A stretch of DNA of 25,389 nucleotides from Rhizobium favelukesii. Its GTDB lineage: Bacteria > Pseudomonadota > Alphaproteobacteria > Rhizobiales > Rhizobiaceae. A model generated the notes under the pieces. It searched no databases. It was not told the origin of the DNA and saw only the letters and a program-made list of their open reading frames with translations. The position numbers were made by a program, and so were the translations under genes. Shown in pieces: positions 607 through 23,184 of the stretch (positions are counted from its first letter, which is position 1; every line of letters begins with the position of its first letter). The stretch covers positions 1 to 25,389 of the forward strand of contig NZ_CBYB010000036.1 in the NCBI RefSeq assembly GCF_000577275.2, written 5' to 3'.

Positions 607-3016
607 TTATCGGCACGGCGAGTTTGGCCTCACAGGCCCACGTGTCTTGCTGCTGTCATAATCGACGACCAGGACGTCCCGCTTACCATCATGCTGACGA
701 TGCAGACGGCCGACATACTGCGCCAGAGTTCCCTTCCAGGCGATCGGCATGGTCAGGAACAACGTGTCGAGCCGGGCGTCATCGAAGCCTTCCCCGATAT
801 AGCGGCCTATCGCAAGTATCAGGCGCTCGTCATCGTCCGCAACATTCAACGCCGTGTTGGCTTGCTTGCGATCCTTCGCCGACATGCCGCCGCGCAGCAC
901 CACCAGATTTTTCACGAACGGCGAGAACTTCTGCTGGGAGATAATCGAGGTGATCCTTACGCTCTGTCAGCAGTATGGGCGAACGTTTGGCCTCGAGGGA
1001 TTTCAGCACGTCATCGAATATCAGGTCATTTCGGCCTTGGTCCTGCGCAAGGGCCGCATAGATCGTTGGCATTGACGGGCGCTCGGCCGAGACGAGTGAC
1101 GCTGGCAACTCAAACTTCGTCGAACGGTCGCGGGCACGGTGGCGAATACCACGCTCGGCAGCCTGAACTCTTGCATCGACCCGATGGCGAACAGGGCCGC
1201 ATTGCATGAAGATGATCGGATGATGACCGTCCTTTCGGGCAACGGTGGCAGATAAGCCGACGACATATCGCGCCTTGGATCTGCGAGCGACAAGTTCAAA
1301 ACTTGCAGCGGACAGATGGTGGCACTCATCGACAATCAGATGACCGTAATTGCCGACAATGTCATCGACCTCGCCATTGCGAACCAGGCTTTGGATCAGC
1401 GCCACATCGACGATCCCTGTCGGCTTCCTTTTCCCGCCACCGATAATGCCGATCTGCTTTGGTTCGATGCTCAGGAAGGAACTCAGACGCTCTACCCATT
1501 GGGTGAGAAGCTCCCTGCGGTGAACAAGAACCAGCGTGTTGCGGCTTCGATGCGCTATGAGTGCAGCTGCGACAACTGTCTTGCCGAAGGCGGTCGTGGC
1601 GGCGAGCACGCCGTTATCGTTGGCGACAAGAGCATCAAAGGCCCGCGATTGTGGCCGTCGCAGTTCCCCTTGGAACGAAACGCCGGCGGGTAGAGCCTCT
1701 CCATCTTCGCGGAGATCCTCCAAAATGGCGATCGCGCCATGGCTCCTGATCAGCTCTACAGTTTCGTCGAAGCAGCCTCGTGGCAGCGCGACATGGCGTG
1801 GGTGAAGCTCGGCACATGAGATGATCCGCGGCTTGCCGAATGTCGGCAATCGCATTGCTTGCGCACGATAGAATTCCGGGTTCTGGAATGCTGCCAGGCG
1901 CACGAACTGCGCAATCAGCGCGGACGGAAGCTCGGTCCTATCAATGTAAACCTGGTCGGCGATCACGACCTTGATGCTTTGCGGGATCGCAGCCTCAATT
2001 CGCCGCGGCTCGCTCCGACGCGACGGTAACATCTTCCAAGGCTCGTCGGCATGTTCGTCATCGACCGGCATCCGAACGCCCAAGACCCGCCCGGACAATT
2101 CGGCTTCGTCGGCGATCCTGAAGACTTCGTCCGCCGACAACCTGGGTAAAGACGACAGGTATGCCCACTGGTCATCGTAGGGTTGCAGGTCGCCATCGAC
2201 AAAAACGCTGTTGCCATTTTCACGGGCTTTCCTTTGCAGGGGAAGCGCGATCAGATTGCCAAAGCCGCCAAGTGGCATCGTATCCTGATTGGGAAAGAAG
2301 CGATCATAAGACGTGAAGCCGATCTCAGGGCGGTTCTCCATCGTCTCTGTTATCAGCGCGGCCCCCAGTTGTCGGGCGATCTTCGCCGGAACGGGTTCGG
2401 AGAAGAATATCCAGACATGGCCTCCGTTTCCCGACCTCGACCGTTCGAGGGCTGCGGCAATTCCTTTTGCACGACAGGTTGCCAGCAACGCTCTGGTATC
2501 GTCCGCCCAGCTTTCCTTGTCGAAGTCAGCAGCAAGGAACCAGCATGTTTCGTCTTGCAGCAATGGATATACGCCGGCAACAAAGTCGCTTGAGCGGGCA
2601 TCGCCGCCACGAAGGTGCTTTTCGATGATATCCTCGGAATACGGGATGAACGCCTGATGGGGGCAGTCCCCACATTTCACCTTCGGCTTGCCGCAGATCC
2701 CTTTCGCCCACTCGTTGGAACAGGATGGCGAATAGCCGGTGCGTCCATCCTTTCTATTTTCCCATCGTACCGGAAAGACATCTGGGCGCCCGGCAAACAA
2801 CTGCCGGAATAACTCCACCTTCTCCATCGACGGTGAGCTGTTGGTAACAGGGGCATCGGCGAAGGCTGGCTTCTCGGCGTTGGCCTGGCTATCGGAAATC
2901 AGCTGTTGCTCAAACACTTCCAGCTCACGCTCAAGCACCATCCGCTCGTCATTCAGATCGGCTAACCGCCCTCGAATGCGAGCAATGTTCTCCCAAGCAT
3001 TATTCTTTTCCGCCAA
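607..3016 (-). pseudogene. TOTE-type archaeo-eukaryotic primase + SF2 helicase, frameshifted
   Basis: In order, the product has an N-terminal coiled coil (residues 8-40), a four-Cys cluster (CSNEWAKGICGKPKVKCGDC), an AEP primase domain with the hhhDhD motif (FLAADFD) and the SGNGGHVWIFF strand carrying its conserved His, FPNQD and GNLIALPLQ. It then has an SF2 helicase: motif I TAFGKT, motif II DECHH, motif III GLSATVARKDG. The frame is lost after ERKDHLDYL. Removing one base from GGG 936-938 restores LQQKFSPFVKNLVVLRGGM and motif VI (QYVGRLHRQ). The restored frame stops at 607 soon after VVDYD, about 30 residues early. TTG 3016 is the only in-frame start after an upstream TAG; ATG 26 codons later is an alternative. 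TOTE proteins are predicted conflict/transposon-associated enzymes. Full activity is unlikely in this copy. Confidence 0.8.
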
Positions 3017-9870: not shown

Positions 9871-10514
9871 CTAATGCTCAGCGGGTTTCCGCACAGAAAA
9901 CATGGCCTTTACCAAAGGAGAAACTCCAAAAACTCGACTTAAAATCACATTTGAACGTTGGCTTCGAAAACCCTCCGTCCAGCTATCTAGCTTGACTTCC
10001 AGTTCCAGCTCGGGCGTCAGCAGTACAAAATCGGCGTCGGCTCCAGCCACAGACCGGCCTTTTTGCTTAGCAATACGCCACGGCGTCGGCGGGATAGGCT
10101 GAGCCATCCGAAACGCTTCCTCCAGTGGAAGCCCGCGCCTTTCATGCACAAAACGCACGGAGGAGAGCATGTCGGCGCCGGCGAGGGTGCCGTCATAAAC
10201 CGTCAGTCGTCCGCCGTCGCGCAAAATTTCGCGGCCGTTCAAGCGTGTCATGTCGGTGGCGATGGTCGACATCGCATCGGTTACCAGGAAAATCTGGCCG
10301 GGGCCTTGTTTGCTTCGGATTGCGATGCCCATCGCTGCCGGGACGACATGGAAGCCATCGGCGATTATCCCCGCAAATAATGTCCCGGTCGCCAGCGCAG
10401 CGCCGACGACACCTGGGTCGCGGTTCGCCCGGCCTCGACAACAAGAGCGGCATCGTCATGCCATTCCATGCCGTCGAAGATCCGAGCGCCCTTTATTTGT
10501 AGGTTCGAACTCAT
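9871..10514 (-). pseudogene. nagA: N-acetylglucosamine-6-phosphate deacetylase, internal deletion
   Basis: NagA hydrolyses GlcNAc-6-phosphate to GlcN-6-phosphate and acetate. ATG 10514 overlaps the upstream SIS gene's TGA (ATGA), and the N terminus SSNLQIKGARIFDGMEWHDD is normal. After about 37 codons the frame is lost and homology resumes in another frame with ALATGTLFAGIIADGFHVVP, GPGQIFLVTDAMS (catalytic Asp), DGTLAGADMLSSVRF and AGADADFVLLTPELE. Roughly 170-200 residues are missing, including the first metal-binding Glu and His residues. The extreme C terminus is also unusual, running into SQRSNVILSRVFGVS. This cannot be a sequencing error: a large internal deletion is needed. The operon therefore lacks its own deacetylase. 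Confidence 0.85.
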
Positions 10515-11545
10515 CGCGTTTCCGTGACCTTCTTCAGGTTTGCGGGTGCATCCGGATTGTGGCCTCGCGAACGTGACCAGGCCTCCACAAAACCATAAAA
10601 TGGCACGATTAGCGCCAGCGCATCGGTGATCGGGTGACCGGTCTCGACGAAGGGCAGGGGATTTGCCGTTGCTGAAAGGGGCGAGGTGATATGGACGAAG
10701 GCGCCCTTGGCAACCAGTTCGTCAGCCACTTCCGCGACCGAACCTTCGGCGGCGTCGCGGGCCGCAAGCGCCAGTATCGGAAAACGCGGTCCGACGAGTG
10801 CGACGGGTCCGTGCAGCACTTCCGCCGCGGAAAAGGCCTCGGCATGAATCCCGGTCGTCTCCTTGAACTTCAACGCCGCTTCGTTGGCGATCGCCAGTGC
10901 CGGGCCGCGACCCAGCACATAGATGGATTCGGCTTCACCGGCGTCGGCGGCAAATTCCCGCCATTCGAGTTTCGCCGCTGCGGCAAAGTGCATCGGTAGA
11001 TCCGCCACCGCGCATTTAAGCGCAGAATCCCCCGTCCACTCTCCCAGCACCGCAAGGCCCGCAACGATGGAGTTGACATAGGATTTGGTGGCGGCTACTG
11101 CATTTTCCGGGCCGGCCAGAATGTCGACGGAATGGTTGCAGGCTTCCGCAAGCGGCGAGGGCAGCGTATTCGTCAGAGCGATCGAGGTGGCGCCGGCGCG
11201 CGTGGCTGAGTCGGCCAGGGCGACAATATCGGGGCTTTTACCGGATTGCGAGATCGCGATGGCTGCGCCGCGACTAAGGTTGAGCTCGGTGCCGTAGATT
11301 GACGCAAGCGAGGGTCCAATCGAAGCGACGGGCAATTTGGCCGTGAGCTCGATCGCATACTTCAGGAACAAGGCAGCATGGTCGGAGGAGCCTCGCGCGA
11401 CTGTGACGACGAATGCGGGATCCTTGGTGCGCAAAGCCGCGCCGGCGGCAGCGAAGTCTTTCACTAAGCGATCAAGCAATCTGGCAGCAGCTTCTGGAAT
11501 TTCGTCGATCTCTCGGCGCATGTTCGTCTGCACGGTGGCCTGCAT
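10511..11545 (-). CDS. SIS-domain glucosamine-6-phosphate deaminase/isomerase (GlmS-isomerase-like)
   Basis: The 344-residue protein has two SIS sugar-isomerase domains and no glutaminase domain. Visible motifs are VVTVARGSSDHAALFLKYAI, AISQSGKSPDIVAL (phosphate-binding Ser/Thr loop), AATKSYVNS, LKFKETTGIHAEAFSAAEVL with the catalytic Glu, HGPVAL, and the C-terminal NPDAPANLKKVTETR tail typical of GlmS isomerase domains. Such stand-alone proteins (NagB-II, AgaS, GlmD types) convert GlcN-6-P to fructose-6-P plus ammonia. ATG 11545 follows AGGA at 8 bases, 31 bases after the GntR gene. Its stop overlaps the nagA start, indicating translational coupling. It acts in the cytoplasm on the phosphorylated amino sugar. 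An aldose-ketose isomerase for another phosphosugar is the alternative. Confidence 0.85.
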   Translation of the reverse strand: MQATVQTNMRREIDEIPEAAARLLDRLVKDFAAAGAALRTKDPAFVVTVARGSSDHAALFLKYAIELTAKLPVASIGPSLASIYGTELNLSRGAAIAISQSGKSPDIVALADSATRAGATSIALTNTLPSPLAEACNHSVDILAGPENAVAATKSYVNSIVAGLAVLGEWTGDSALKCAVADLPMHFAAAAKLEWREFAADAGEAESIYVLGRGPALAIANEAALKFKETTGIHAEAFSAAEVLHGPVALVGPRFPILALAARDAAEGSVAEVADELVAKGAFVHITSPLSATANPLPFVETGHPITDALALIVPFYGFVEAWSRSRGHNPDAPANLKKVTETR

Positions 11546-11576: not shown

Positions 11577-12341
11577 TCAGTTTTCGAGAAAGGTGAGTTC
11601 GGTGACGAAGCCGTCGGCATCGCCTCGGAAAAGGCAGCGGGTGAATTCTATCGCGCGGCCCGAAGCAAGATAGGCGACGCGCTTCGTCAAGAGACCGGCC
11701 GTTCCAATGGTGCCGCCGAGCATGTTGGCGTCCGGGTCTTCGATGTTGCATGCGAAAATGCGCTCGATCGCTCGGACGGGTCTAAAGTCTGCGTCCACGG
11801 GTGTTTTGTCGGTCGAGGAGGTAACGCTAAGCGAGTCGGGCAGGAACTCCGAGGAAATACATATGCGTTCGATAGCAAGCGGCCGGCCCGCCGAACTCCG
11901 CAAGCGCGTGAGGCGCGTGACGCGGCTGTCGCCGGACAGGCCGAGTGTCATCATCTCCTCTGATGCGGGATGCGACGTGCTGCGCTCGATCCACACGACT
12001 TCCGTGTCCGATCCGCGCCAGGAGACCTCACCTGTCAAAGACACCGCGCATGACAGAGGCTGATCTGCGCGGAGGGCTGAGCCGGAAACGAAGGTTCCCG
12101 AGCCGGGTCGACGAACCAAAAGCCCGTGGCGTACGAGATGGTCGATTGCCTTGCGGACCGTGACACGGCTGACGTGGACATGTGCAGCCAGATCCCGCTC
12201 GGGATAAAGAACATCGCCCTCTTTGAGTTTACCCGAGAGGATTGGCTCTTCAAGCGCCAGGCGAAGCCTATGATAGAGCGGACCGGCGCCCCTGATGTCT
12301 ATGCCCCATCGTGGAGGCATGGCCGCAAGCCTGTCACTCAT
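11577..12341 (-). CDS. GntR-family (HutC/UTRA type) transcriptional regulator
   Basis: 254 residues from ATG 12341, which overlaps the kinase stop as ATGA. The N-terminal winged helix reads PLYHRLRLALEEPILSGKLK, then DVLYPERDLAAHVHVSRVTV and RKAIDHLVRHGLLVRRPGSG. The C-terminal UTRA ligand-binding domain shows SGDSRVTRLTRLRSSAGRPL, AIERICISSEFLPD and ends FTRCLFRGDADGFVTELTF. Regulators of this shape (NagQ/NagR/DasR type) usually respond to amino-sugar phosphates. Encoded inside the catabolic operon, it probably represses or autoregulates it. A second, ROK-type regulator lies just beyond the operon, so the locus has two candidate sensors. Family call is firm; the effector is inferred from context. 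Confidence 0.88.
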   Translation of the reverse strand: MSDRLAAMPPRWGIDIRGAGPLYHRLRLALEEPILSGKLKEGDVLYPERDLAAHVHVSRVTVRKAIDHLVRHGLLVRRPGSGTFVSGSALRADQPLSCAVSLTGEVSWRGSDTEVVWIERSTSHPASEEMMTLGLSGDSRVTRLTRLRSSAGRPLAIERICISSEFLPDSLSVTSSTDKTPVDADFRPVRAIERIFACNIEDPDANMLGGTIGTAGLLTKRVAYLASGRAIEFTRCLFRGDADGFVTELTFLEN

Positions 12342-13219
12342 ACGATCGCCTTCAGATGCCTGAAGCGCGAGACCGCCAGGGCTACGGCCCCCGTCAGTGC
12401 ATCGCCCACGGGTGTGGCCAGTAGATTTTGATGCCGTGCGGCGATCCATGACGGATAGAGCGGCCCCAACCCACCGAGCAGGCAAATCTTCTGTGTCCCT
12501 CGTGCGACGAGACGATCCAGCACTTCGTCAACTGAAACAGCGGCTTCTTTCAACAGGCGCGCGGCAACGGCATCGCCCTGTTTCGCATGCTCGAATACCC
12601 GCGGCGCATAACGACCGAAGTCACCGGGCTTTGCCTGACGCGCAAACTCGACAATATTCCGTGGATCGTTTTTGAATTCCGCAAGGACGGAGCCGCTCAC
12701 TCCGGAAATAGCATGGATGCCGTCGTGAGCCAGCAGCGTTTCTTGCAGAAGCGCATGTCCTATACGAGCGCCGCTGCCAAGGTCGCCGATCGTAAAGCCC
12801 CATCCGCCAATGTAAGTCACCGTATTGCGCTGGCGTGAGATGTAGATCGTGCCGGTTCCTAAAATGGCGACAGCTCCGTCGTCATTGCCAAGCGCACCTT
12901 GTAGCGCGATAAGCCCGTCTGACTCGATGTCTGCCTCGGGGAAGGGCAGCCGGTTTTTTACGTGGCGAACCGCGTCGCCGACATTGTTGCCCGCAACGCC
13001 GAGAACTGCACGCGCCGAGCCGATACAACGCGCATCAATACCTTCCGCGTTGAAAGCCGCACGGGTCGCATCGGCAATGCTCTCAAGCGCCGTATCCGGA
13101 TCAGAGAGAATATTGGCTGGGCCGGATTGGGCCCGCGCAAGAATACGTCCGTCTGGACCGGCAACCGCCGCACGGCAGCTCGTGCCTCCGCCATCGATTC
13201 CAATCAGGTAGATCGTCAT
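12338..13219 (-). CDS. BadF/BadG-type N-acetylglucosamine/glucosamine kinase
   Basis: 293 residues with the actin-like ATPase fold. The phosphate-1 loop is LIGIDGGGTSCRAAV, the conserved ALGNDDGAVAILGTGTIYIS block supplies phosphate-2, and WGFTIGDLGSGARIGHALL and KICLLGGLGPLYP follow (adenosine motif). This is the family of NagK/GspK-type kinases that use ATP to make GlcNAc-6-P or GlcN-6-P in the cytoplasm. ATG 13219 follows AGGGA; a longer upstream frame lacks a better start. It is the first gene of the leftward operon and is driven by the promoter-like site at 13298-13324. Since the binding-protein transporter does not phosphorylate its cargo, a kinase is needed before deacetylation or deamination. 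Exact sugar is unproved. Confidence 0.85.
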   Translation of the reverse strand: MTIYLIGIDGGGTSCRAAVAGPDGRILARAQSGPANILSDPDTALESIADATRAAFNAEGIDARCIGSARAVLGVAGNNVGDAVRHVKNRLPFPEADIESDGLIALQGALGNDDGAVAILGTGTIYISRQRNTVTYIGGWGFTIGDLGSGARIGHALLQETLLAHDGIHAISGVSGSVLAEFKNDPRNIVEFARQAKPGDFGRYAPRVFEHAKQGDAVAARLLKEAAVSVDEVLDRLVARGTQKICLLGGLGPLYPSWIAARHQNLLATPVGDALTGAVALAVSRFRHLKAIV

Positions 13220-13297
13220 GGGCCCGGTTCCCTCAGGGCAAGGTAGTTCGACGCAACGCCGTTGAGCCGCGCTCATCACACCGCTTGTTCGTACGTG

Positions 13298-13324
13298 CGT
13301 CGCACAAACATACTGGATTGTCAA
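13298..13324 (-). promoter_or_regulatory. promoter/operator of the kinase operon
   Basis: On the minus strand TTGACA (13324-13319) is followed by nine bases and then GTTTGTGCGACG (13309-13298), about 80 bases before the kinase start. The same TTGACA-N9-GTTTGTGCGACG string precedes the transport operon. A GACGCA hexamer 17 bases after TTGACA could be the -10. Continuing into 13286, the site makes an imperfect inverted repeat, TGTTTGTGCG with CGTACGAACA. I infer an operator for a shared regulator. Confidence 0.65.
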
Positions 13325-13371
13325 TTGGAAACAGAAGAGGATACGATCACCTAACTCAAGGAACCTTCAAT

Positions 13372-13831
13372 CTTTCCTGCAGACACCGAGCGCCATGCCA
13401 TCTGGAAATGCTCATGCGCAAAGACGTCGACGGCTTCGTCGCTCAGGATTGGACGGTTTGCTCCATCCTTCAAGTTTGACGGGTTTTGCGGACTGGATGC
13501 GAAGGGCTCGCTCGATCCCGCAGGTTGGGAAGTACGGTTTCCAACAGTCGAAGCCTACCGTGATGCGTGGCTCGGAGATTGCCTAGCGCTCGGCTTCCAC
13601 CCGATATGCCGAGGACCGCAGAGAGGCTCTTTACCGGGCATCAAATATGCTGGACATCCGCGTGGAACGGCAAACGGCGACCGCTCGGAAGACTTTCAAC
13701 GACGCAATTGCTCTTGCGGAAGGAGGCTCTCAGATATTGAACTGGCAATCGGTGTTCTTTTGCACCAAGGAGGGGGAGCTTGGAAAATAACCGGCTTTGT
13801 GGGTTTCCTGCCGGTCTCACTTAAAGCCTGA
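13372..13831 (+). pseudogene. decayed NTF2/SnoaL-like small protein gene
   Basis: The three plus-strand frames, read in turn, give a coherent protein. They are MLMRKDVDGFVAQDWTV (from ATG 13408), then PSFKFDGFCGLDAKGSLDPA plus GWEVRFPTVEAYRDAWLGDC, then RYAEDRREALYRASNMLDIR plus FNDAIALAEGGSQILNWQSV, then WKITGFVGFLP with TGA at 13831. The last block is the typical closing strand of NTF2-like folds ('GxWKIxGFxGxLP'). At least three frame changes are needed, so this is a decayed gene. The family assignment is from fold-like pattern only. It sits between the two sugar operons and may once have belonged to the locus. The start position is approximate. Confidence 0.55.
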
Positions 13832-13939
13832 GCGTCTTCTTAGCGCGTTGTTGCGCTGCTGACGGGACGCTGGCGCTGCCTCCCGCCAAACAGCCACTTT
13901 TCAGCTGTTGCTTTAGCGAGCCGAATACATCCTGTCGCC

Positions 13940-15199
13940 TTAGATGACCACTTTAAGATGGCTTGATAAAACCAGACCTGCGGCTCCACGTAGCGCCGTA
14001 TGCCCTTCGCCTATACCATTCACCGTTATGGAAATTTCCTGACCTGGTCTCTTCACCACCATCTGCTCGACATGCCGTCTGATCCGCTCTGCAGCCTTTG
14101 TCCCGCCTCCGGCGACGTCTCCATGGAGGACGTAGGAGTTAAGGGATAATGTTTGCTGTAGGTTAACGATGCCGAAAGCTACATTGCGCGCGTAGCGGTC
14201 GAGAAGATCATCGGCTGCCTTCGAGCCCTCGTCCGCTTCCTTGACAAGGCGAGCACAGGTGATGCTTGCCGGCTGCGGCAAACCCGTCCGGGCGGCCTCT
14301 TTTCGCAGCCAGGGAAGGGCAGCCACGGTCTCCCAGCAGCCATGCTTTCCACAATTGCAAAGTGCGCCATCGATCTGGACCACGCTATGACCGAGTTCGC
14401 CGCCGGAACCAGCAAGTCCGCGGTAGACTTTGCCATCGATGAAGAAGGCTCCGCCGAGAACCTCACCGGTATAGACCGCCGCAAAATTTTGTTGGCCACG
14501 TCCGGGTCCAAACCATCGGTCACCGACAAGCAAGGCACGGGGGTGATGATCGATGACAACCGGGAGAGAGAAGTGTTCTTGTAATATGGCTACAAGGGGA
14601 AGGCCCGTCAGAACGGGAGCAAGGTTGACAGTGAGAATGACCCCATTGTCGCTGTCGATCATTCCAGCGGACGCCACGCCAATGCCGAATGGTGCCTGCT
14701 GGGCTTGAGACAGGGTAGAAGTAAGTGTCTTTGTCATAACCGCTATTAATGCTTGCTTGTCGCCAAACGGATCGAACTCGGCTTTCGTCACGGCCTTGAT
14801 CTCACCGGTTAACGCGACGAGGCAGGCCTGCATCGTGCCGGGCAGAAGGAGGACTGCGCCGAGCATCGGTGCATCAGGGTTGAAATAAAGCGGACGAGCC
14901 GGCTTGCCGCCTTTGACGTCGGAAGGCGACGCATCCCCCTCGACAAGAAGCCGGTCCTCGATCATTGGCTGCACGATACCGGTTATCGTCGTGCGGTTGA
15001 CGCCTGCAAGCCGGGCGAGATCTGCCCGACTTTTTGGCCCGTTATCATATAACGCTTGCAGAACTCGACCCCGGTTGATGGCGCCAAGTGCTGATTGCGA
15101 GACAAGCGTCACGTTGCTGCCATTCTCGCCGGCAGGGACTTCTCTGCTCGTTGGCGTGCGCTGGCCCAACGAATAGGACGGCTGGCTCTCAAATTTCAA
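13940..15199 (-). CDS. ROK-family transcriptional regulator (NagC/XylR type)
   Basis: 419 residues. A winged helix-turn-helix reads INRGRVLQALYDNGPKSRAD, LARLAGVNRTTITGIVQPMI, EDRLLVEG. The ROK sugar-binding fold follows: GIGVASAGMIDSDNGVIL, VVIDHHPRALLVGDRWFG, GGELGHSVVQ with the EXGH-type signature, and the zinc cluster CNCGKHGCWE. The start is TTG 15199, after GGAGA at 6-7 bases; a GTG about 28 codons in is the alternative. It is transcribed away from the transport operon. ROK regulators of the XylR group bind AGTTTGT-type palindromes, and the transport promoter carries exactly such arms (AGTTTGT/ACAAACT), so I infer this protein represses both sugar operons until its ligand binds. Confidence 0.87.
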   Translation of the reverse strand: MKFESQPSYSLGQRTPTSREVPAGENGSNVTLVSQSALGAINRGRVLQALYDNGPKSRADLARLAGVNRTTITGIVQPMIEDRLLVEGDASPSDVKGGKPARPLYFNPDAPMLGAVLLLPGTMQACLVALTGEIKAVTKAEFDPFGDKQALIAVMTKTLTSTLSQAQQAPFGIGVASAGMIDSDNGVILTVNLAPVLTGLPLVAILQEHFSLPVVIDHHPRALLVGDRWFGPGRGQQNFAAVYTGEVLGGAFFIDGKVYRGLAGSGGELGHSVVQIDGALCNCGKHGCWETVAALPWLRKEAARTGLPQPASITCARLVKEADEGSKAADDLLDRYARNVAFGIVNLQQTLSLNSYVLHGDVAGGGTKAAERIRRHVEQMVVKRPGQEISITVNGIGEGHTALRGAAGLVLSSHLKVVI

Positions 15200-15340
15200 T
15201 TTTCATCTCCAATCTGCCGGATCCCTTTGTAGCCTGTACAGTCTCGAACGGCCAGACAGCATAAGGCCTTTCCCATGACGCAATTGGATGGCGGCGGCGC
15301 GTCGCGGTTGATGCCCGCAAATTTTCAGTGCGGCAACTTC

Positions 15341-15375
15341 TTGACACTATCATAAGTTTGTGCGACGTACAAACT
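15341..15375 (+). promoter_or_regulatory. promoter/operator of the transport operon
   Basis: TTGACA (15341-15346) is followed by nine bases and GTTTGTGCGACG (15356-15367). A perfect inverted repeat with arms AGTTTGT (15355-15361) and ACAAACT (15369-15375) and a 7-base centre overlaps the expected -10 region; GACGTA lies 17 bases after TTGACA. A regulator bound here would block polymerase. A further CAAACT half-site lies near 15391-15396. The first gene starts about 110 bases downstream. Confidence 0.7.
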
Positions 15376-15484
15376 AACTGCTGACAAAAGCAAACTAGGG
15401 GTAACAATCTCAGTATCTACAGCGGAAGCCAAGGGCTGCGCTGACCGGTCGGGGTTGGATTACAGATCAACTGAGGAGGCTCTT

Positions 15485-16942
15485 ATGACGATCGATATCG
15501 GAAATATGTCGCGACGTGACCTGCTGAAAAGCGCTTCCGTCGCAGCTCTTGTGGCTGGCGCGGGTTCGTTGGCCATTCCACGGCGAGGTGCCGCACAGGA
15601 TGCGAACACGGTCCGCGTCCTGTCCGTTGAAGACCCATTCTTCTTCTCGATGAAGGCGCTGGTGCCGGAATACGAGAAGGAAACCGGCATCAAGGTGGAA
15701 TTGGAGAGCCTCTCCTATGACGCCCTTCAGTCGCGCCTCGTGTCGGCCTTTGTCGCCAAGACCTCGGACGCCGATGTCATAGTTGTTGACCAGATGTGGC
15801 TCGGGCAGTACCTCGACAATGGCTGGATCATCTCGCTGAACGATTTTATTGCCAAGGACAGCGAATTCGACCTTTCCGACTTCATCCCGGAGGTCCTCTA
15901 CTCCTCGAACATGTGGCGCGGCCAGGTCGGCACACTGCCGGTTGCCGCCTATGCGCAGGGGGTCATGTATCGCAAGGACGTCTTTGACGAGCTTGGTATC
16001 GCAGCGCCGCCGACCGAAACGTCGGAAGACTGGACCTGGACGAAATACGTCGACACACTGAAGTCGATGGAAGGCAAGTCATTCGCCGGCAAGCCGCTGT
16101 TTCCAACCGTCGTTTGCGGTTCCCAGCCGTCGCCGATCGTCCATATGTTCACGCAGGTTTCGGCAAGCCACGGGGCGAACTGGTTCAAATCGTTCCCGGC
16201 CGCCCCGTGGGATTTCTCCCCACAACTGACAAGCCCCGCTTGGATCAAGTCTGTCGAAGTCTACAGGCAGCTCTACAAGCTGTCTCCGCCTGAAGCGATC
16301 AACTATGTCTGGTTCGACGCCGGCACCCGGTTTGCCAAGGGCGACATCGGCATGTTCTACTGGTGGACCCCGTACTTCTATCTGATCAAGAATTCCGGTT
16401 ACATGACCGGCAAGAAATCGGACGTAATGGACAGGTACGCAACGGCGGCCTTGCCGAAAGCCGAGGGCGTGCCTCAGACAGTCAGCCTCGGCGGCTGGAG
16501 CCTTGGCATCCCGTCCAGTTCCGAAAGACAAGAGGCCGGCTACGCCTTCATCAAATGGGCGACCTCGAAGGCCACGCAGAAGAAAATGGCTCTTTGGCCG
16601 GACCTCAACTATCAGTTCTCCGACTTTGCGCGCGCTTCGCTCTATGAGGACGAAGAGGTCAAGGCGATCTATCCTTACCTCGATGTGCAGTATGCAATGA
16701 TGAAGCAGGGAAATGGCAAGGTCACACGTCCGCCTGTTCCTGGTTATACGGCCGTCGAAAGTGTGCTGGGCCTCACACTGAACCAGCTCCTGACCGGCAG
16801 CGAAGAACCGAAGACCGGCCTCGAGCGCGCCAACAGCCTGTTCGAGAGCATCCTCAAGGGCAATCTCATGATCCCCTACCAGAAGGATAGCTACGCGGAT
16901 ACTCTCCATGGGGCCAAAGCCCTAATCGCCAAGAAGAAATAG
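15485..16942 (+). CDS. ABC sugar transporter, periplasmic binding protein (Tat-exported)
   Basis: 485 residues from ATG 15485, with GAGGAGG five bases upstream; the longer frame from 15455 has no such site. A twin-arginine signal (MSRRDLLKSASVAALVAGAG) precedes a likely cleavage near GAAQD. The mature part is a type 1 extracellular solute-binding protein: VLSVEDPFFFSMKALVPEYE, VIVVDQMWLGQYLDNGWI, GTLPVAAYAQGVMYRKDVFD, GDIGMFYWWTPYF and SLGGWSLGIPSSSERQEAGY. Many Trp/Tyr residues fit carbohydrate stacking. It captures the sugar in the periplasm for the two permeases that follow. Amino-sugar specificity is inferred from the kinase and deaminase operon next door. A hairpin after its stop likely raises its yield relative to the permeases. 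Confidence 0.9.
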   Translation: MTIDIGNMSRRDLLKSASVAALVAGAGSLAIPRRGAAQDANTVRVLSVEDPFFFSMKALVPEYEKETGIKVELESLSYDALQSRLVSAFVAKTSDADVIVVDQMWLGQYLDNGWIISLNDFIAKDSEFDLSDFIPEVLYSSNMWRGQVGTLPVAAYAQGVMYRKDVFDELGIAAPPTETSEDWTWTKYVDTLKSMEGKSFAGKPLFPTVVCGSQPSPIVHMFTQVSASHGANWFKSFPAAPWDFSPQLTSPAWIKSVEVYRQLYKLSPPEAINYVWFDAGTRFAKGDIGMFYWWTPYFYLIKNSGYMTGKKSDVMDRYATAALPKAEGVPQTVSLGGWSLGIPSSSERQEAGYAFIKWATSKATQKKMALWPDLNYQFSDFARASLYEDEEVKAIYPYLDVQYAMMKQGNGKVTRPPVPGYTAVESVLGLTLNQLLTGSEEPKTGLERANSLFESILKGNLMIPYQKDSYADTLHGAKALIAKKK

Positions 16943-17009: not shown

Positions 17010-17939
17010 ATGCACACGACAATTGTTCGCTCTTCGCGAGCCCTCGGGCCTGCCCGGAAGAGCTTTATCCGACGAAACCTACCTTACTTGCTGATTGCGC
17101 CTTCGGTGGTAATGCTGCTCGCTCTGATCGCCTACCCCTTGCTGTTTGCTCTGAGATCGAGCTTCTACTTCTGGAACCTGCAAATCGGACCGGAACCGCT
17201 CCAATTCGTTGGCTTCGAGAACTATGTGCAGGCCTTCAACGCCTTTGACTTTCGCGCCGCGCTCGCCAACACGCTGATCCTGTCAATCCTTGGCACGGCA
17301 CTTGAGTTCACATTCGGGCTTGCGATCGCGCTCATCCTGCTCAAGGCCTTGCCTGGCATGAACGTTGTGCGTGCCCTGCTGATCCTGCCCACCACGATCG
17401 CGCCCATCGTCGTCGGCTTTTTGTTCCGCTACCTCTATGATCCCGGCGGTGGACTGTTGAGCTGGGTGTTGCAGTCGCTCTGGCTCCCCGTTCCCGCGGA
17501 AGGCATTCTCGGCTCGCCGTCGACAGCGCTTGCGGCCATCCTCTTCGTCGACATCTGGCAATGGACGCCGTTCTTTGCAATCGTTCTCTATGCAAGCCTC
17601 CTGGCCGTCCCCGACGAGATTTTGGAGGCCGCACGACTGGATCGGGCATCTGCATGGACGATCCTGATGCGGATCAAGCTGCCGCTGATCAAGCGCACGG
17701 CGATCATCATCGTCATGTTGCGCTTCATGCAAATCTTCAACACCTTCGACACGGTGCTTGTGCTCACCCGCGGCGGACCGGGCACCTCCACCCGCACCCT
17801 CGGATACTCGCTGTACGAACAGGGCCTCGTGAACTTCAACATCGGTCTCGTCAGTGCAATGACCTGGATCACAGTGCTGATCGTCAACGTCATCGTTGCC
17901 CTCTACGTGTTCTTCGCGTTCCGAAACGAGGAGTGGTAA
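17010..17939 (+). CDS. ABC sugar transporter permease (MalF-type)
   Basis: 309 residues with about six membrane helices. The first is LLIAPSVVMLLALIAYPLLF (from about residue 28), and later ones include ALLILPTTIAPIVVGFLF and the last WITVLIVNVIVALYVFFAF. The cytoplasmic EAA loop, which docks on the ATPase, reads EILEAARLDRASAWTILMRI then KLPLI. This is the inner-membrane subunit type that pairs with a MalG-like partner. ATG 17010 is preferred; TTG 17004 in frame is possible, and the ribosome site is weak (AGAAGAA about 12 bases away). The stop is one base before the next gene's ATG, so the two permeases are coupled. Confidence 0.9.
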   Translation: MHTTIVRSSRALGPARKSFIRRNLPYLLIAPSVVMLLALIAYPLLFALRSSFYFWNLQIGPEPLQFVGFENYVQAFNAFDFRAALANTLILSILGTALEFTFGLAIALILLKALPGMNVVRALLILPTTIAPIVVGFLFRYLYDPGGGLLSWVLQSLWLPVPAEGILGSPSTALAAILFVDIWQWTPFFAIVLYASLLAVPDEILEAARLDRASAWTILMRIKLPLIKRTAIIIVMLRFMQIFNTFDTVLVLTRGGPGTSTRTLGYSLYEQGLVNFNIGLVSAMTWITVLIVNVIVALYVFFAFRNEEW

Positions 17940-17940
17940 A

Positions 17941-18774
17941 ATGTTCCGTCGCCACACGAGCTTCAACACGGCACTCACTTACGCCGCCGGCCTCCTCTTC
18001 CTGGCAATCTTCGTTGGGCCGATCCTCTGGTTCATCGCTCTTGCGATCCGCCCGGCCGAGACGGCGTTCATCATGCCGCCGCAACTTACCTTCGAGCCCA
18101 ATCTCGACGCGTTCCGGCATATCCTCGTCGATCCCGGCACCAATGCGCCGCAACTGGTCAACAGCCTTATCGTCGCAATCGGTGCTGTGTTGCTCAATCT
18201 GCCCTTTTCGGTTCCCGCTGCCTACGCGTTGTCCCGTTTCAAGCTACGCGGCAAGAAGAACATCATGTTGTGGTATCTCGGCCTGCTGATGGCCCCGCCG
18301 GTCGCGTTTCTGATCCCCTATTTCATCCTCATCACGCGCATCGGTCTGCAGGGTTCCTACTTCTCGATGATCCTGGTTCTCCAGACACTGACGATCCCGT
18401 TTTCCGTCTGGTTGATGAAGAGCTTCATCGACGAGGTTCCAGTCGAACTGGAGGAAGCTGCCCGGGTCGACGGCGCCCGTTGGTATACGATCATGTTGCG
18501 GATCACACTGCCGATCGTTCGTCCCGGCATCATTGTCACCTCGATGTTCGCCTTCGTGTTCGCATGGAACAACGCCGCCTTTCCGCTGGTGCTGAGCTCG
18601 CGCTCGACCGCCACCCTTCCGATCGGAACACTTGGATATTTCGCCACGAGCGGAGTGACGTGGAATTACATCGCCGCCGCTGCCGTGCTCGCGATGATAC
18701 CGCCGATGATCATCTTCCTTGTTTTCGATCGATATGTCGTTCGAGGCCTCACCTTTGGTTCGGTGAAGGGCTGA
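17941..18774 (+). CDS. ABC sugar transporter permease (MalG-type)
   Basis: 277 residues, six predicted helices, starting with AAGLLFLAIFVGPILWFIAL. The EAA loop is ELEEAARVDGARWYTIMLRI then TLPIV, closer to consensus than in the partner permease. FAWNNAAFPLVLSS is the usual MalG-family periplasmic/helix block. ATG 17941 comes one base after the upstream TAA (TAAAATG). The long overlapping frames on this stretch are shadows. It forms the membrane channel with the preceding permease and uses the ATPase encoded two genes on. Confidence 0.9.
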   Translation: MFRRHTSFNTALTYAAGLLFLAIFVGPILWFIALAIRPAETAFIMPPQLTFEPNLDAFRHILVDPGTNAPQLVNSLIVAIGAVLLNLPFSVPAAYALSRFKLRGKKNIMLWYLGLLMAPPVAFLIPYFILITRIGLQGSYFSMILVLQTLTIPFSVWLMKSFIDEVPVELEEAARVDGARWYTIMLRITLPIVRPGIIVTSMFAFVFAWNNAAFPLVLSSRSTATLPIGTLGYFATSGVTWNYIAAAAVLAMIPPMIIFLVFDRYVVRGLTFGSVKG

Positions 18775-18802: not shown

Positions 18803-19828
18803 ATGTGCAAAATGCGAATGGGCGTCATCGGCGCCGGTCTCTGGGGCGGCAATCACGCCCATACCTTTAATGTCTTGCCGGAGACCGAGCTGGTCGGCGT
18901 TTGCGACCTCGATGAGGGCAGGGCGCTGAAGATGAAGGAAACCTACGGCGCAACGCGGGCCTTCATCGACTACCACAAGCTGATCTTAAGCGATCAGATC
19001 GATGCGATCTCGGTCGCGACACCTGACTTTACCCACACGCCGATCATTCTCGCTGCTCTGAAAGCCGACAAGCACGTATTGAGCGAAAAGCCGCTTGCAA
19101 CGACAGTGCGTGAAGCCGAGGAAATTGCTGCGGCTGCCGCAAAGTCCAAGGGCAAGCTGATGATTGATTTCCACAACCGTGTGAATCCGATCCTTGCCCA
19201 GGTCCGCGACATGATTCAGGACGGTCAGATCGGCCTGGCCAAGCACGGCACCGCGCGTCTTTCGAATACGACATTCGTTCCATTCGAAATGCTGAGCTGG
19301 GCTGCAAAATCTTCGGCACTCTGGTTTTTGGGCAGCCATTTGGTCGATGTCCTGCGTTTTATTCTCGCAGACGAGGTCGTGCGTGTTTATTCCGTCGCCC
19401 GCTCGGGTACCCTGTCTGCCGGCGGCGTGGATACGAAGGACTTCCATGTGTCGGTGCTTGAATTTTCCAAGGGCACGGTCGTGACCATGGAGAACAGCTG
19501 GATCCTGTCGCGTGACAATCCTTCGCTCGTCGATTTCAAGATCGAGTTTGTTGGTGAAAAGGGCCAGGTGCAGGCAGACCCGACCCATAGCGGCGGCCTG
19601 CGCCGGATCGTCGATGGCGGACTAAAATACAATGACTATATCGGCATAACACCCACCGGCGCGACGCGTATCGGCGGCTTTGTCCTGGAATCCATTGCTC
19701 GCTTTGTCGATAGCGTGGTGCGTGACGCTCCGCTGCTGGCAGATGCACAGGACGGCCTCGCAAACACCAAGATCCTGGCCGCGATCGAGGAATCCGTCGC
19801 GACCGGCAAGGCTGTGAACATCGGCTAA
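18803..19828 (+). CDS. Gfo/Idh/MocA-family NAD(P)-dependent oxidoreductase
   Basis: 341 residues from ATG 18803, with GGAG seven bases upstream. The N-terminal Rossmann fold carries MGVIGAGLWGGNHAHTF; the family EKP motif is in KHVLSEKPLATTVREAEEIA; DFHNRVNPILAQVRDMIQ opens the C-terminal substrate domain. WFLGSHLVDVLRFI supplies the conserved catalytic-region His. These enzymes oxidise or reduce sugars and sugar derivatives. Lying between permease and ATPase genes, it should act on the transported sugar, for example oxidising a hydroxyl before or instead of deamination. Its presence hints that the true substrate may be more than plain glucosamine. Family call firm, substrate unknown. Confidence 0.9.
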   Translation: MCKMRMGVIGAGLWGGNHAHTFNVLPETELVGVCDLDEGRALKMKETYGATRAFIDYHKLILSDQIDAISVATPDFTHTPIILAALKADKHVLSEKPLATTVREAEEIAAAAAKSKGKLMIDFHNRVNPILAQVRDMIQDGQIGLAKHGTARLSNTTFVPFEMLSWAAKSSALWFLGSHLVDVLRFILADEVVRVYSVARSGTLSAGGVDTKDFHVSVLEFSKGTVVTMENSWILSRDNPSLVDFKIEFVGEKGQVQADPTHSGGLRRIVDGGLKYNDYIGITPTGATRIGGFVLESIARFVDSVVRDAPLLADAQDGLANTKILAAIEESVATGKAVNIG

Positions 19829-19906: not shown

Positions 19907-21073
19907 ATGGCGTCCATGACCTTCGACGGGATCGGCAAGACCTTTCCGGACGGAACCGTTGCTGTTGCAAATGTCACTTTTTCGGTCGCGGACGGAGAAT
20001 TCGTCGTGTTGGTCGGCCCGTCGGGTTGTGGCAAGTCGACATTGTTGCGGATGGCAGCAGGCCTTGAAACGCTAAACAGCGGTCGGCTGCTCATGGATGA
20101 CGCTGATGTCACCGAGACCGAGCCCCAGGACCGGGATATTGCGATGGTTTTCCAGAACTACGCGCTTTACCCCCATATGACCGTTTACGACAACATGGCC
20201 TTCGGTCTTCAGCAGCGCAAAATGCCCAAGGACAAGATCGACAAGCTGGTGCGCGACGCAGCAGAAATGCTCGATCTCACCCGCTATCTTGAGCGCAAGC
20301 CCGGGGCATTGTCCGGTGGTCAGCGCCAACGCGTGGCGATGGGTCGAGCGATCGTTCGCCATCCCTTGGCCTTCCTGATGGACGAACCACTTTCCAACCT
20401 GGATGCCAAGCTCCGCGTGCAGATGCGCGGTGAACTGAAGCTGCTTAATCAGCGGCTTGGCGTAACGACCCTCTATGTAACCCACGATCAGGTCGAGGCC
20501 ATGACCATGGGCGATCGTGTGGCTGTGCTGAAGCCGGTGTTCAACGGACAGGAAAGTAATCTCCAGCAGATCGACACCCCGCAGATGCTCTACGACAAGC
20601 CTGCCAACCTCTTCGTCGCCGGGTTCATCGGCTCGCCCGCCATGAATTTCATCCGCGTCGAGCTGACGGCGGAAGCCGGCTCGCTCAAAGCTGCGGTCAC
20701 TGGAACTAAGATATCCTTCTCCATACCAGCCAAGGCGGCATTGTCGGCCTATGCAGGGCGACAAGTCATTGCCGGGATCCGCCCGGAGATGTTCCAGGTT
20801 TGTCCGGAGGCTGAGGCATTGTTCAACGAGCAGATACCAGTCGCTGAAGCGCTTGGAGCTGACACCTTCGTCTTTTTCGACATCGCGTCACCGCCGATAA
20901 ATATAAACGATGCCGAAGACACGGAAGACTTTCCCAATAAGGGCAAGAACCGGCTTGTGGCGCGTATCCCACCGGCGCTGACACCACGTCCCAATCAGCT
21001 GCTGCCACTGACTGTCGATCTGGAGAAGTTGCATTGGTTCGACCCTGTAACGGGGACCGCGATCCGCGACTGA
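19907..21073 (+). CDS. ABC sugar transporter ATPase (UgpC/MalK-type)
   Basis: 388 residues from ATG 19907, after GGGGAG at 8 bases; the longer frame from 19874 has no ribosome site. Walker A is VGPSGCGKST, the Q-loop is MVFQNYALYPHM, the signature is ALSGGQRQRVAMGRAIVR, Walker B is LAFLMDEPLSNLDAKLR, and the switch His is in TLYVTHDQVEAMTMGDR. A C-terminal TOBE/OB regulatory region follows from about residue 245, as in MalK-type energisers that can serve several permease pairs. It drives the two MalF/MalG-type permeases above. The TOBE region carries an acidic insert (NINDAEDTEDFPNKG), unusual but in frame. Last gene of the transport operon. Confidence 0.92.
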   Translation: MASMTFDGIGKTFPDGTVAVANVTFSVADGEFVVLVGPSGCGKSTLLRMAAGLETLNSGRLLMDDADVTETEPQDRDIAMVFQNYALYPHMTVYDNMAFGLQQRKMPKDKIDKLVRDAAEMLDLTRYLERKPGALSGGQRQRVAMGRAIVRHPLAFLMDEPLSNLDAKLRVQMRGELKLLNQRLGVTTLYVTHDQVEAMTMGDRVAVLKPVFNGQESNLQQIDTPQMLYDKPANLFVAGFIGSPAMNFIRVELTAEAGSLKAAVTGTKISFSIPAKAALSAYAGRQVIAGIRPEMFQVCPEAEALFNEQIPVAEALGADTFVFFDIASPPININDAEDTEDFPNKGKNRLVARIPPALTPRPNQLLPLTVDLEKLHWFDPVTGTAIRD

Positions 21074-21252: not shown

Positions 21253-23184
21253 GTGAAACACGTTTCCATTGTCGGTAAGTTCTTTATCATCATGGCTGTC
21301 TTTGGCGTCATGGCGCTCGGTCTGGCGTTCTACCAGAGCCGGCAAATGCTGAAGGTTAACGACAGCTATCGAGGGCTTCTCGACAGAGATGCATCTGCAG
21401 CACTTCGCTTGACCCAGTCGAACCGAAGTCTAGAAACAGCGCGTGCCAGCATCAGCGACATGGTGATGACGCGGTCCAAAGAGGCGAGGTCGCGCGCAGA
21501 AGCTGGCCTGAACGACGCGCGAGAAAACTTCGTCAGATTCATGGATATGGCGATCGCTGTGGTTCCGGAGCAGAGCGAATTGCCAAAGTTGAAGTCGGAT
21601 GGTTTCTCCGTCCTGACCGATACATGTGGTGCAGCCATCGCAGTTGGCCGCGGCGCGACCAGTGAAGCCGAGCTCGCCATGGTGCAGCAACTCTATCTCA
21701 CTTTGTGCCAACCCGCCTTTGCTGCCATCTCGCCGCGGTTCACATCCGTGACCGAACAACTCGCCTCCGATGCAGAGCAAAAGCGTGCTGATGTTTCACG
21801 CGTGGTCCGTGACACGTCCATGCTGAGTTTGGGAGCGGCTATTGGGGCACTCCTCGTTATCTCGTGCTTCGGTTTTCTCGCAATTCGGACCTGGTTGGTC
21901 AAACCCATCAAGCAGATGGTGGTGACGATGAAGATCATTGCGGACGGCGATCTCACATCGACCATCGAGGGAACGATCCGCCGTGACGAGATCGGATCGA
22001 TGGCCCGAGCGGTGCAGATCTTCAAGGACAACGAGTTGAGGGCGCGGGATCTAGAAAAGGATGTGGAGGCCAGTCGTGGCGCAAACGAGATTGAACGTGC
22101 GCGCATCGCCGAGACCGAGCGTCAGCGGGCACAGGATATGGCTGAGGCCACGGTCAGCCTGGCAGAAGGCCTGAAGCAACTCGCCGGCGGCAACCTCGTG
22201 TTCAGGCTCGACGGCAATTTCGCCGGGGACTTCGAACCGTTGCGCGCGAACTTCAACGCTGCTGTTGCCCAACTCGCTGAAAGCTTGAGAGCCGTGTCCG
22301 ACGCCACCGGATCGATAGATGACGGCGCGCAGGAAATCAGTGTGAGCGCCCAAGACCTGTCACGCCGCACGGAGCATCAGGCTGCTTCCTTGGAGCAGAC
22401 CGCCGCCGCACTGGATCAAATTACCCAGAACGTCGCCAGTTCCTCAAGGCGCACAGCGGAGGCGCGACATGTTGCGATCGAGGCAAACAAGTCGGCGCGC
22501 CGCTCCGGGGAAGTGGTCTCCAGCGCTGTCGCGGCAATGCAACGCATCGAACGGTCATCCTCGCAGATCTCGAGTATTGTCGGTGTCATCGACGAAATCG
22601 CGTTTCAGACCAATCTTCTGGCGCTCAACGCCGGCGTCGAGGCCGCACGGTCGGGTGAGGCTGGAAAAGGATTCGCGGTGGTTGCCCAGGAAGTGCGGGA
22701 GCTTGCTCAACGCTCCGCGCATGCCGCGAAAGAGGTCAAGGATCTGATCCTCAATTCGGTCGATGAAGTCAGCAATGGTGTCAAGTTGGTCCGGGATACC
22801 GGCGACACGCTCAAGATCATCGAGGAACAGATCATACTGATCAACACTCAGCTGGATGCCGTCACGGCCGCTTCCAACGAGCAGTCCGTAACCCTTTCTG
22901 AGGTCAACCGGACAGTCAATCAAATGGATCAGGTTACCCAGCAAAATGCGGCTATGGCCGAGGAATCCACGGCTGCAAGTACGGCACTTGCCGTCGAGGC
23001 AAAGCGGTTACGAGAGATTGTGTCGGAGTTTCAGATCGACGAAGGCGATGCAACTCGTGGGCGGCAAACGGGTGATATCGACCCGCACTCAACGTCCTCG
23101 CCCGCCCGCCGAATGCTGGAAAAGGTCGCGAACGCACTCGGAATGGCAAGCAATAGTGACGCGGAAGAACGATACCGGTCGTGA
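21253..23184 (+). CDS. methyl-accepting chemotaxis protein (4HB-HAMP)
   Basis: 643 residues. I chose GTG 21253 because AGAGGAG lies seven bases upstream and the first membrane helix ([20 protein letters not shown]) then sits at the N terminus. A helical periplasmic domain (~30-185) is followed by a second helix ([19 protein letters not shown], ~192-212), a HAMP domain ([20 protein letters not shown]), a second HAMP-like unit ([20 protein letters not shown]), and the signalling hairpin with tip [20 protein letters not shown]. The tail ends DAEERYRS with no NWETF-type docking pentapeptide. It follows the transport operon by 180 bases and may sense the same sugar through the binding protein, but that is inference. 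No CheA/CheW gene is nearby. Confidence 0.92.

Follow-up and report, generated by a model that had tools for sequence, protein, structure and literature searches.

Candidate operators of a ROK-family regulator at two divergent amino-sugar operons of Rhizobium favelukesii

Two divergent operons in a 25,389-nucleotide stretch of Rhizobium favelukesii DNA (assembly GCF_000577275.2, contig NZ_CBYB010000036.1; hereafter, the window) carry the same string, TTGACA-N9-GTTTGTGCGACG, at 13324-13298 on the minus strand and at 15341-15367 on the plus strand, with no mismatch in either 27-mer, and a gene of a ROK-family regulator lies between the two units, both as the original prediction had placed them. 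We consider it probable (roughly 75%) that both sites are operators of this intervening ROK protein, which would repress a transport and a kinase operon for amino-sugar uptake and breakdown.

Gene content and replicon

The minus-strand unit is formed by a kinase, a GntR/UTRA regulator, a deaminase and a broken nagA-type deacetylase, and the plus-strand unit by an ABC transporter (binding protein, two permeases and ATPase) and a Gfo/Idh oxidoreductase; a chemotaxis receptor comes next (Table 1). In 13 of 21 named loci, a homologue of this receptor stands at the same place, in one case as a fragment. The window very probably belongs to a plasmid, since the same DNA is found on plasmid pT136b (806,677 bp) of Rhizobium sp. 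T136, with 99.9% identity across 3,781 bases, and matches to the locus are present in 54 plasmid records. Legume nodules are the origin of many among the 40 plasmid records listed with it. In comparison with the relative locus L035, the nagA-type gene (9871-10511, minus strand) has lost about 590 bp internally, and the name NagA would be safe only for L035, because the full-length gene there passes TIGR00221. The kinase operon seems to be decaying.

Table 1. Positions of the genes and putative regulatory elements of the two units in the window
Feature	Position	Strand	Basis
C-terminal remnant, nagA-type deacetylase	9871..10332	-	nagA profile positions 267-373 only
SIS-domain deaminase, NagB-II-like	10511..11545	-	NagB_SO3506 269 bits, below cutoff 430; start from pT136b annotation
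GntR/UTRA regulator, NagQ-like	11577..12341	-	PF00392 and PF07702; start from pT136b annotation
Kinase, N-acetylglucosamine kinase-like (BadF type)	12338..13219	-	PF01869; NagK_SO3507 186 bits, below cutoff 370; pT136b annotation: N-acetylglucosamine kinase
Candidate kinase operator, centre 13300	13287..13313	-	Left half and core perfect, right arm degraded; symmetric-matrix score 27.3
TTGACA, putative -35 of kinase operon	13319..13324	-	Exact; TTGAC in 18/20 unique kinase promoters
ROK-family regulator with TTG start, candidate repressor of the two operons	13940..15199	-	PF00480 E 2.3e-41; pT136b annotation: ROK regulator
TTGACA, putative -35 of transport operon	15341..15346	+	Exact; TTGAC 5' of site in 19/19 unique transport promoters
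Candidate transport operator ATAAGTTTGTGCGACGTACAAACTAAC, centre 15365	15352..15378	+	Palindrome 15355-15375; GTTY-N11-RAAC in 19/19 unique transport promoters
ABC transporter solute-binding protein	15485..16942	+	PF01547
ABC permease 1	17010..17939	+	Profile searches; start from pT136b annotation
ABC permease 2	17941..18774	+	Profile searches; start from pT136b annotation
Gfo/Idh/MocA-type oxidoreductase	18803..19828	+	Profile search; same name in pT136b annotation
ABC ATPase, UgpC type	19907..21073	+	NF008653 440.7 bits, above cutoff 432; start from pT136b annotation
Methyl-accepting chemotaxis protein, 3' of transport operon; putative operon member	21253..23184	+	Profile search, pT136b annotation

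Some further features of the locus are worth recording. The deaminase match is likewise short in several R. leguminosarum-type loci (L120, L126, L127 and L130). Between the ROK gene and the kinase promoter, positions 13371-13812 are 85% identical to a 160-amino-acid open reading frame of L035 (11750-12232, minus strand), which is divergent from the kinase and has no PFAM match; in the window, about 13361-13828 forms one forward frame without stops, and a promoter-like pair at 13318-13347 points the same way. At 830-3016 (minus strand), a DEAD/DEAH helicase-type protein is encoded, with a partial PrimPol match below the cutoff.

The shared string and operator architecture

Allowing up to three mismatches, the 27-mer occurs in the window only at these two positions, with an expectation of 0.03 from shuffles, none of 100 of which reach two. 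The perfect palindrome AGTTTGT-N7-ACAAACT claimed for the transport operon is indeed exact at 15355-15375; at a tolerance of three mismatches, 35 of 100 shuffles contain at least one match, and the match in the window has none of these mismatches. Across the 7.57-Mb genome, the 12-mer GTTTGTGCGACG was found four times, the two copies outside the window having no TTGACA at N9, and the consensus GTTTGTGCGACGCACAAAC occupies four distinct places with up to three mismatches and only the two window sites with up to two. Thus, no third regulon member was found in the own genome within two mismatches of one consensus, a search that weaker sites would escape, and the regulon would have two members if the operator defines it. 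As for dyad symmetry, 10 of 13 pairs are symmetric at 15365 and 9 of 13 at 13300. Since ten window positions, 15365 included, reach 10 or more pairs, symmetry alone is unremarkable, and the strength of the case lies in repetition and conservation.

The two promoters differ in how much of the site they keep. At the unique transport promoters, TTGACA is separated from the site by 9 nt in 17 cases and by 10 nt in 2. In the kinase promoters, GTTTGTGCGA is present in all 20 unique sequences and the full two-arm GTTY-N11-RAAC in 2, the right arm not being RAAC in the other 18, the window included (GTAC for RAAC). Because the kinase promoters keep GTTTGTGCGA but mostly not the right arm, the shared string is to be taken as the left half-site plus core of the putative operator, and not as the whole of it. 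The palindrome had been expected to lie over the -10 element. It is present, but its overlap with a -10 is deduced from the -35 only, as no -10-like hexamer was found 16-18 nt after TTGACA at either promoter by the promoter scan.

The same scan bears on a different reading, in which the transport operon would have a second promoter, CTGACA-N16-AACAAT (15381-15408), and the ROK protein, bound 5' of it, would act as an activator of this operon. That pair was detected, and 17 of the 19 unique upstream sequences contain a loose (T/C)AACNA within their final 110 nt, with the second hexamer lying in this block. However, the scan returned two promoter-like pairs (the other being TTGTCA-N18-TACGAT, 13318-13347), both on the plus strand, against a shuffle average of 0.7; the first hexamer, CTGACA, is not conserved between lineages; the kinase promoters have no such block; and the feature that both operons have in common is TTGACA upstream of the site. 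We thus regard activation as unlikely.

Recovery of the kinase sites with a weight matrix

A weight matrix was built from six unique transport sites, the window being excluded, and run over chosen loci from 35 sources, 626 kb in total. With the symmetric form, scores of 23.0 or higher were obtained for the transport and kinase sites, among them the G028 site that precedes a decayed kinase; the site linked to an IclR gene (see below) scored 16.2, and shifted copies, background and everything else at most 14.9. With the one-directional form, the IclR-linked site reached 26.2, ahead of 22.8 for the kinase site of the window and ahead of other sites; the lowest score of a kinase site, that of L042, was 18.4 (19.4 on the other strand), little more than the 17.6 of the best unrelated match. 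The symmetric matrix therefore separates the kinase sites with a clear gap and the one-directional form less well. The kinase after the second site of G028 was read as decayed by eye; no match to a kinase was obtained at that place by tblastn at 1e-10. Sites that overlap with a 4-bp shift, of the kind named for Bacillus xyl, were also considered and were discarded, given that such matches reach at most 14.9 with the symmetric matrix and stem from the repetitive arms.

Conservation across genomes

The genus was scanned in 148 genomes, with a threshold of E 1e-60 or better for ROK matches. Of the 31 matches, the one in G094 is a 55% paralogue, leaving 30 orthologues of 81-100% identity. The pattern GTTTGTGCGANNYACNNAC was found in 35 of the 148 genomes, namely in all 30 with a ROK orthologue and in 5 of the 118 without, and the form ending GTACAAAC is present in each of the 30. 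The palindrome before the transport operon is likewise kept in 30/30, and, among the 21 named loci, it precedes the binding-protein gene in 20 by the exact pattern, so that the conservation upstream of orthologous operons by which the original prediction was to be checked is observed. The remaining locus, from Aureimonas (L053, ROK 71% identical), has the variant arms GTTCGTGCGAGCCTCGAAC in place. The Fisher value for the ROK orthologue versus the site (1.6e-26) is to be taken with caution, since the transport site physically adjoins the ROK gene, and the association is partly trivial because that site lies 166 bp from the ROK start. Among the five ROK-less genomes with the pattern, four (G021, G069, G092 and G118) have GTTTGTGCGATATACGAAC in common; in the fifth, G138, the kinase operon and the kinase site are kept, with no ROK match at E 1e-60 in its 320-contig assembly.

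In a draw of 297 genomes from the family, a ROK match at 1e-120 or better was present in two, the own genome and G314 (69%), both with the full palindrome, and ten other genomes, without that ROK match, have the looser pattern used there. The palindrome also occurs in Shinella, Aureimonas (variant arms) and another family member, with ROK proteins 69-73% identical. In the 19 unique transport upstream sequences, the stretch from the ROK gene to the site is scrambled between lineages, the constant elements being the operator with its TTGAC and, for the most part, the ribosome-binding region. Most lineages also keep the block GGGGTAACAATC (window 15398-15410), which lies 3' of the transport operator.

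It could be argued that the shared string belongs to the promoters themselves or to a global regulator and has no ROK link, given that both promoters are most constant in TTGAC and GTTTGTGCGA. We give this very little credence, since only two sites exist in the genome within two mismatches, the site is rare in the genomes without the ROK gene (the five mentioned above), and it takes a palindromic form at the transport promoter.

The ROK protein as candidate reader of the sites

The ExGH (sugar-binding) and CxCGxxGCxE (zinc) motifs characterize the ROK family, and the translation of the intervening gene carries ELGHSVVQIDGALCNCGKHGCWE, which covers both. Its C-terminal domain (residues 124-411) matches PF00480 with 142.7 bits; in the N-terminal HTH region, MarR_2 scores 21.9 bits, under its gathering score of 27, and the alignment with Lmo0178, which starts at residue 38, spans the region. 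The best solved relatives are Lmo0178 (3.4e-32), followed by Mlc/NagC types, and the matches are strong. As to the ROK-family criterion of a two-arm operator near the own gene and the target operon, two arms are found in 19 of 19 transport sites and in 2 of 20 kinase promoters.

ROK paralogues of 44-48% identity have a similar HTH stretch, which we take to be the recognition helix, and another conserved AT-rich stretch upstream of their genes. GTTYG-N9-CRAAC was absent from the 19 stretches read upstream of these paralogues (at least 27 in number), so an operator common to the ROK protein and its paralogues, which had been considered, was not found there; we read each ROK protein as probably having its own operator. 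A conserved AAGTATATTATAAAATATATT-like stretch upstream of the paralogues (L148-L166) is a candidate for one of their own. Network work on R. etli names ROK regulators, and no operator is given in the available portions of those papers (PMC11387232, PMC9611204).

The GntR/UTRA protein of the kinase operon is the other regulator to be weighed, as it could bind the shared sites and control both operons, with the ROK protein reading something else. Its gene is part of the kinase operon, and in alphaproteobacteria N-acetylglucosamine (GlcNAc) genes are under the control of NagQ, likewise a GntR protein (PMC5343134). However, in 13 of the 30 genomes with the ROK orthologue no kinase match exceeds about 50%, i.e., no intact plasmid-type kinase or GntR, and the transport site is retained in all 13, independently of the plasmid-type GntR protein; remains of the plasmid kinase were looked for in G028 only. 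The best GntR of these genomes is 45-46% identical and adjoins or overlaps a chromosome-type kinase in 13/13. Such a chromosome-type kinase-GntR pair is also present in the own genome, on the 4.2-Mb contig C59, and the kinase, the GntR protein and the ATPase are 48-49% identical between the plasmid and chromosome types. The two GntR proteins (49% identical) have the stretch VSRVTVRKAID unchanged, and the chromosome-type relative sits behind TGGTATT repeats, the direct repeats described for NagQ (PMC4494728). Among 132 genomes with a kinase match, 13 loci giving 12 unique promoter sequences of the chromosome type were compiled. These promoters are strongly conserved; 10 of the 12 contain two exact TGGTATT 10-11 bp apart and the other two one exact copy, whereas for the plasmid type no TGGTATT is present on either strand in any of 20 kinase and 19 transport promoters. 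Moreover, most HutC-type sites are compact, with GT and AC 4 nt apart (PMC4494728). On the strength of the 13 genomes and the boxes of the relative, the GntR protein was rejected as the reader, and we consider control by it a very slim prospect.

The ROK protein, and not the GntR protein, is therefore likely to read both sites, because the sites persist without the plasmid-type GntR, because the chromosome-type promoter has the TGGTATT box and the plasmid promoters none, and because the site layout fits the printed RokB site (see below). Of the two-operon regulon that had been put forward, both operons and the ROK protein as the best candidate hold, but the kinase site is without a mirror arm.

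In one chromosome-type locus (L129, 7750-8013), TGGTATT/AATACCA boxes lie between the kinase and a divergent gene of a binding protein, likely a NagQ divergon. The plasmid transport operon was also considered as a paralogue of the chromosomal operon beside the chromosome-type kinase, which was rejected, as no more than 29 residues of the binding proteins align and identity between the permeases is 31-33%.

Comparison with known regulators

RokB of Streptomyces coelicolor is a ROK protein whose site on novH, measured by SPR, is TTTGTTC-N11-GAACAAA, with the arm spacing of GTTY-N11-RAAC; the same paper describes T-rich 5' ends and A-rich 3' ends for several ROK sites (PMC4856308). In a comparison of four sites with the novH arms, the R. 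giardinii kinase site shares 13 of the 14 letters, with identical spacing, and the transport site of the window shares 9. Unlike here, RokB's five sites in its own genome have no inverted repeat, and its targets are described as mostly other than sugar genes (PMC4856308).

The arms had initially been likened to those of XylR-type ROK proteins. Bacillus-type XylR does resemble the plasmid case in having its repressor gene divergent from a sugar operon and GTTT...AAAC arms, but its site is printed as GTTT-N7-AAAC (PMC9104551), versus N11 here. A solved XylR chain matches the plasmid ROK protein at E 9.5e-9, far weaker than Lmo0178, and no xylose genes are among the genes named in the window. Arms of this kind are thus not specific for XylR, as the spacing is that of the RokB site and the IclR-linked site has the same arms.

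NagC is a ROK regulator of GlcNAc genes as well, although from gammaproteobacteria (PMC5343134), and the TransRegNagC model gives 93 bits for the plasmid ROK protein versus a cutoff of 650. NagQ (GntR/HutC) controls the same type of genes and the chromosome-type pair has its repeats; the difference is that the plasmid-type promoters are without them and the NagQ-like gene lies inside an operon with a ROK-type site.

Proposed mechanism and significance

In the mechanism that we favour, a ROK dimer without its sugar ligand would occupy GTTTG-N9-CAAAC, covering the region just 3' of TTGACA and thereby blocking both promoters, so that the ABC-transport operon and the kinase-GntR-deaminase-(nagA) operon would be repressed. 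An amino sugar or its phosphate (GlcNAc type) would release the protein, and uptake and breakdown would begin at the same time. Having a single good arm, the kinase site is expected to be the weaker of the two, and the NagQ-like GntR gene would travel in the kinase operon without its product reading the sites. For comparison, sites of the ROK repressor XylR of Caldicellulosiruptor bescii lie over promoter elements or 5' UTRs (PMC8579813).

Different groups use different regulators for the GlcNAc pathway (PMC5343134), and ROK control of GlcNAc genes is already known from NagC. What appears to be new is the plasmid alphaproteobacterial case, in which the NagQ boxes are absent, both promoters have putative ROK-type operators and a NagQ-like gene is carried along. 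Among the matches listed, no paper was found describing the operator or the regulon, a weak negative given that most subscription papers and regulon databases fall outside the coverage. The regulon is ordinary-looking and local, unusual mainly by the absence of the switch of a second, related regulator. It nevertheless yields a concrete candidate operator, a likely regulator and a short list of two target operons, and the paralogous pair, with NagQ-type boxes on the chromosome and ROK-type operators on the plasmid, may serve as a model for a catabolic operon changing its regulator. As many of the listed plasmid records come from legume nodules, the sensed sugar may matter in the root zone. A more speculative scenario, which we find doubtful, is that the plasmid nag operon was rewired from NagQ to ROK but still carries a NagQ-like gene whose HTH stretch is unchanged, and that the GntR product of this gene, for which neither plasmid promoter has a NagQ box, may act in trans on the chromosomal TGGTATT boxes; if true, the plasmid would tie the GlcNAc operon of the chromosome to the sugar sensed by its own ROK protein.

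A look-alike site beside an IclR gene

The arms do not name the regulator family, because GTTTGTGCGATATACGAAC stands beside an IclR gene. In L122 (G021), it is located between this gene and a CoA-transferase/thiolase operon; in L125 (G069), L133 (G092) and G118, it is known from the identical match only. We regard it as a candidate for a separate regulon with look-alike arms.
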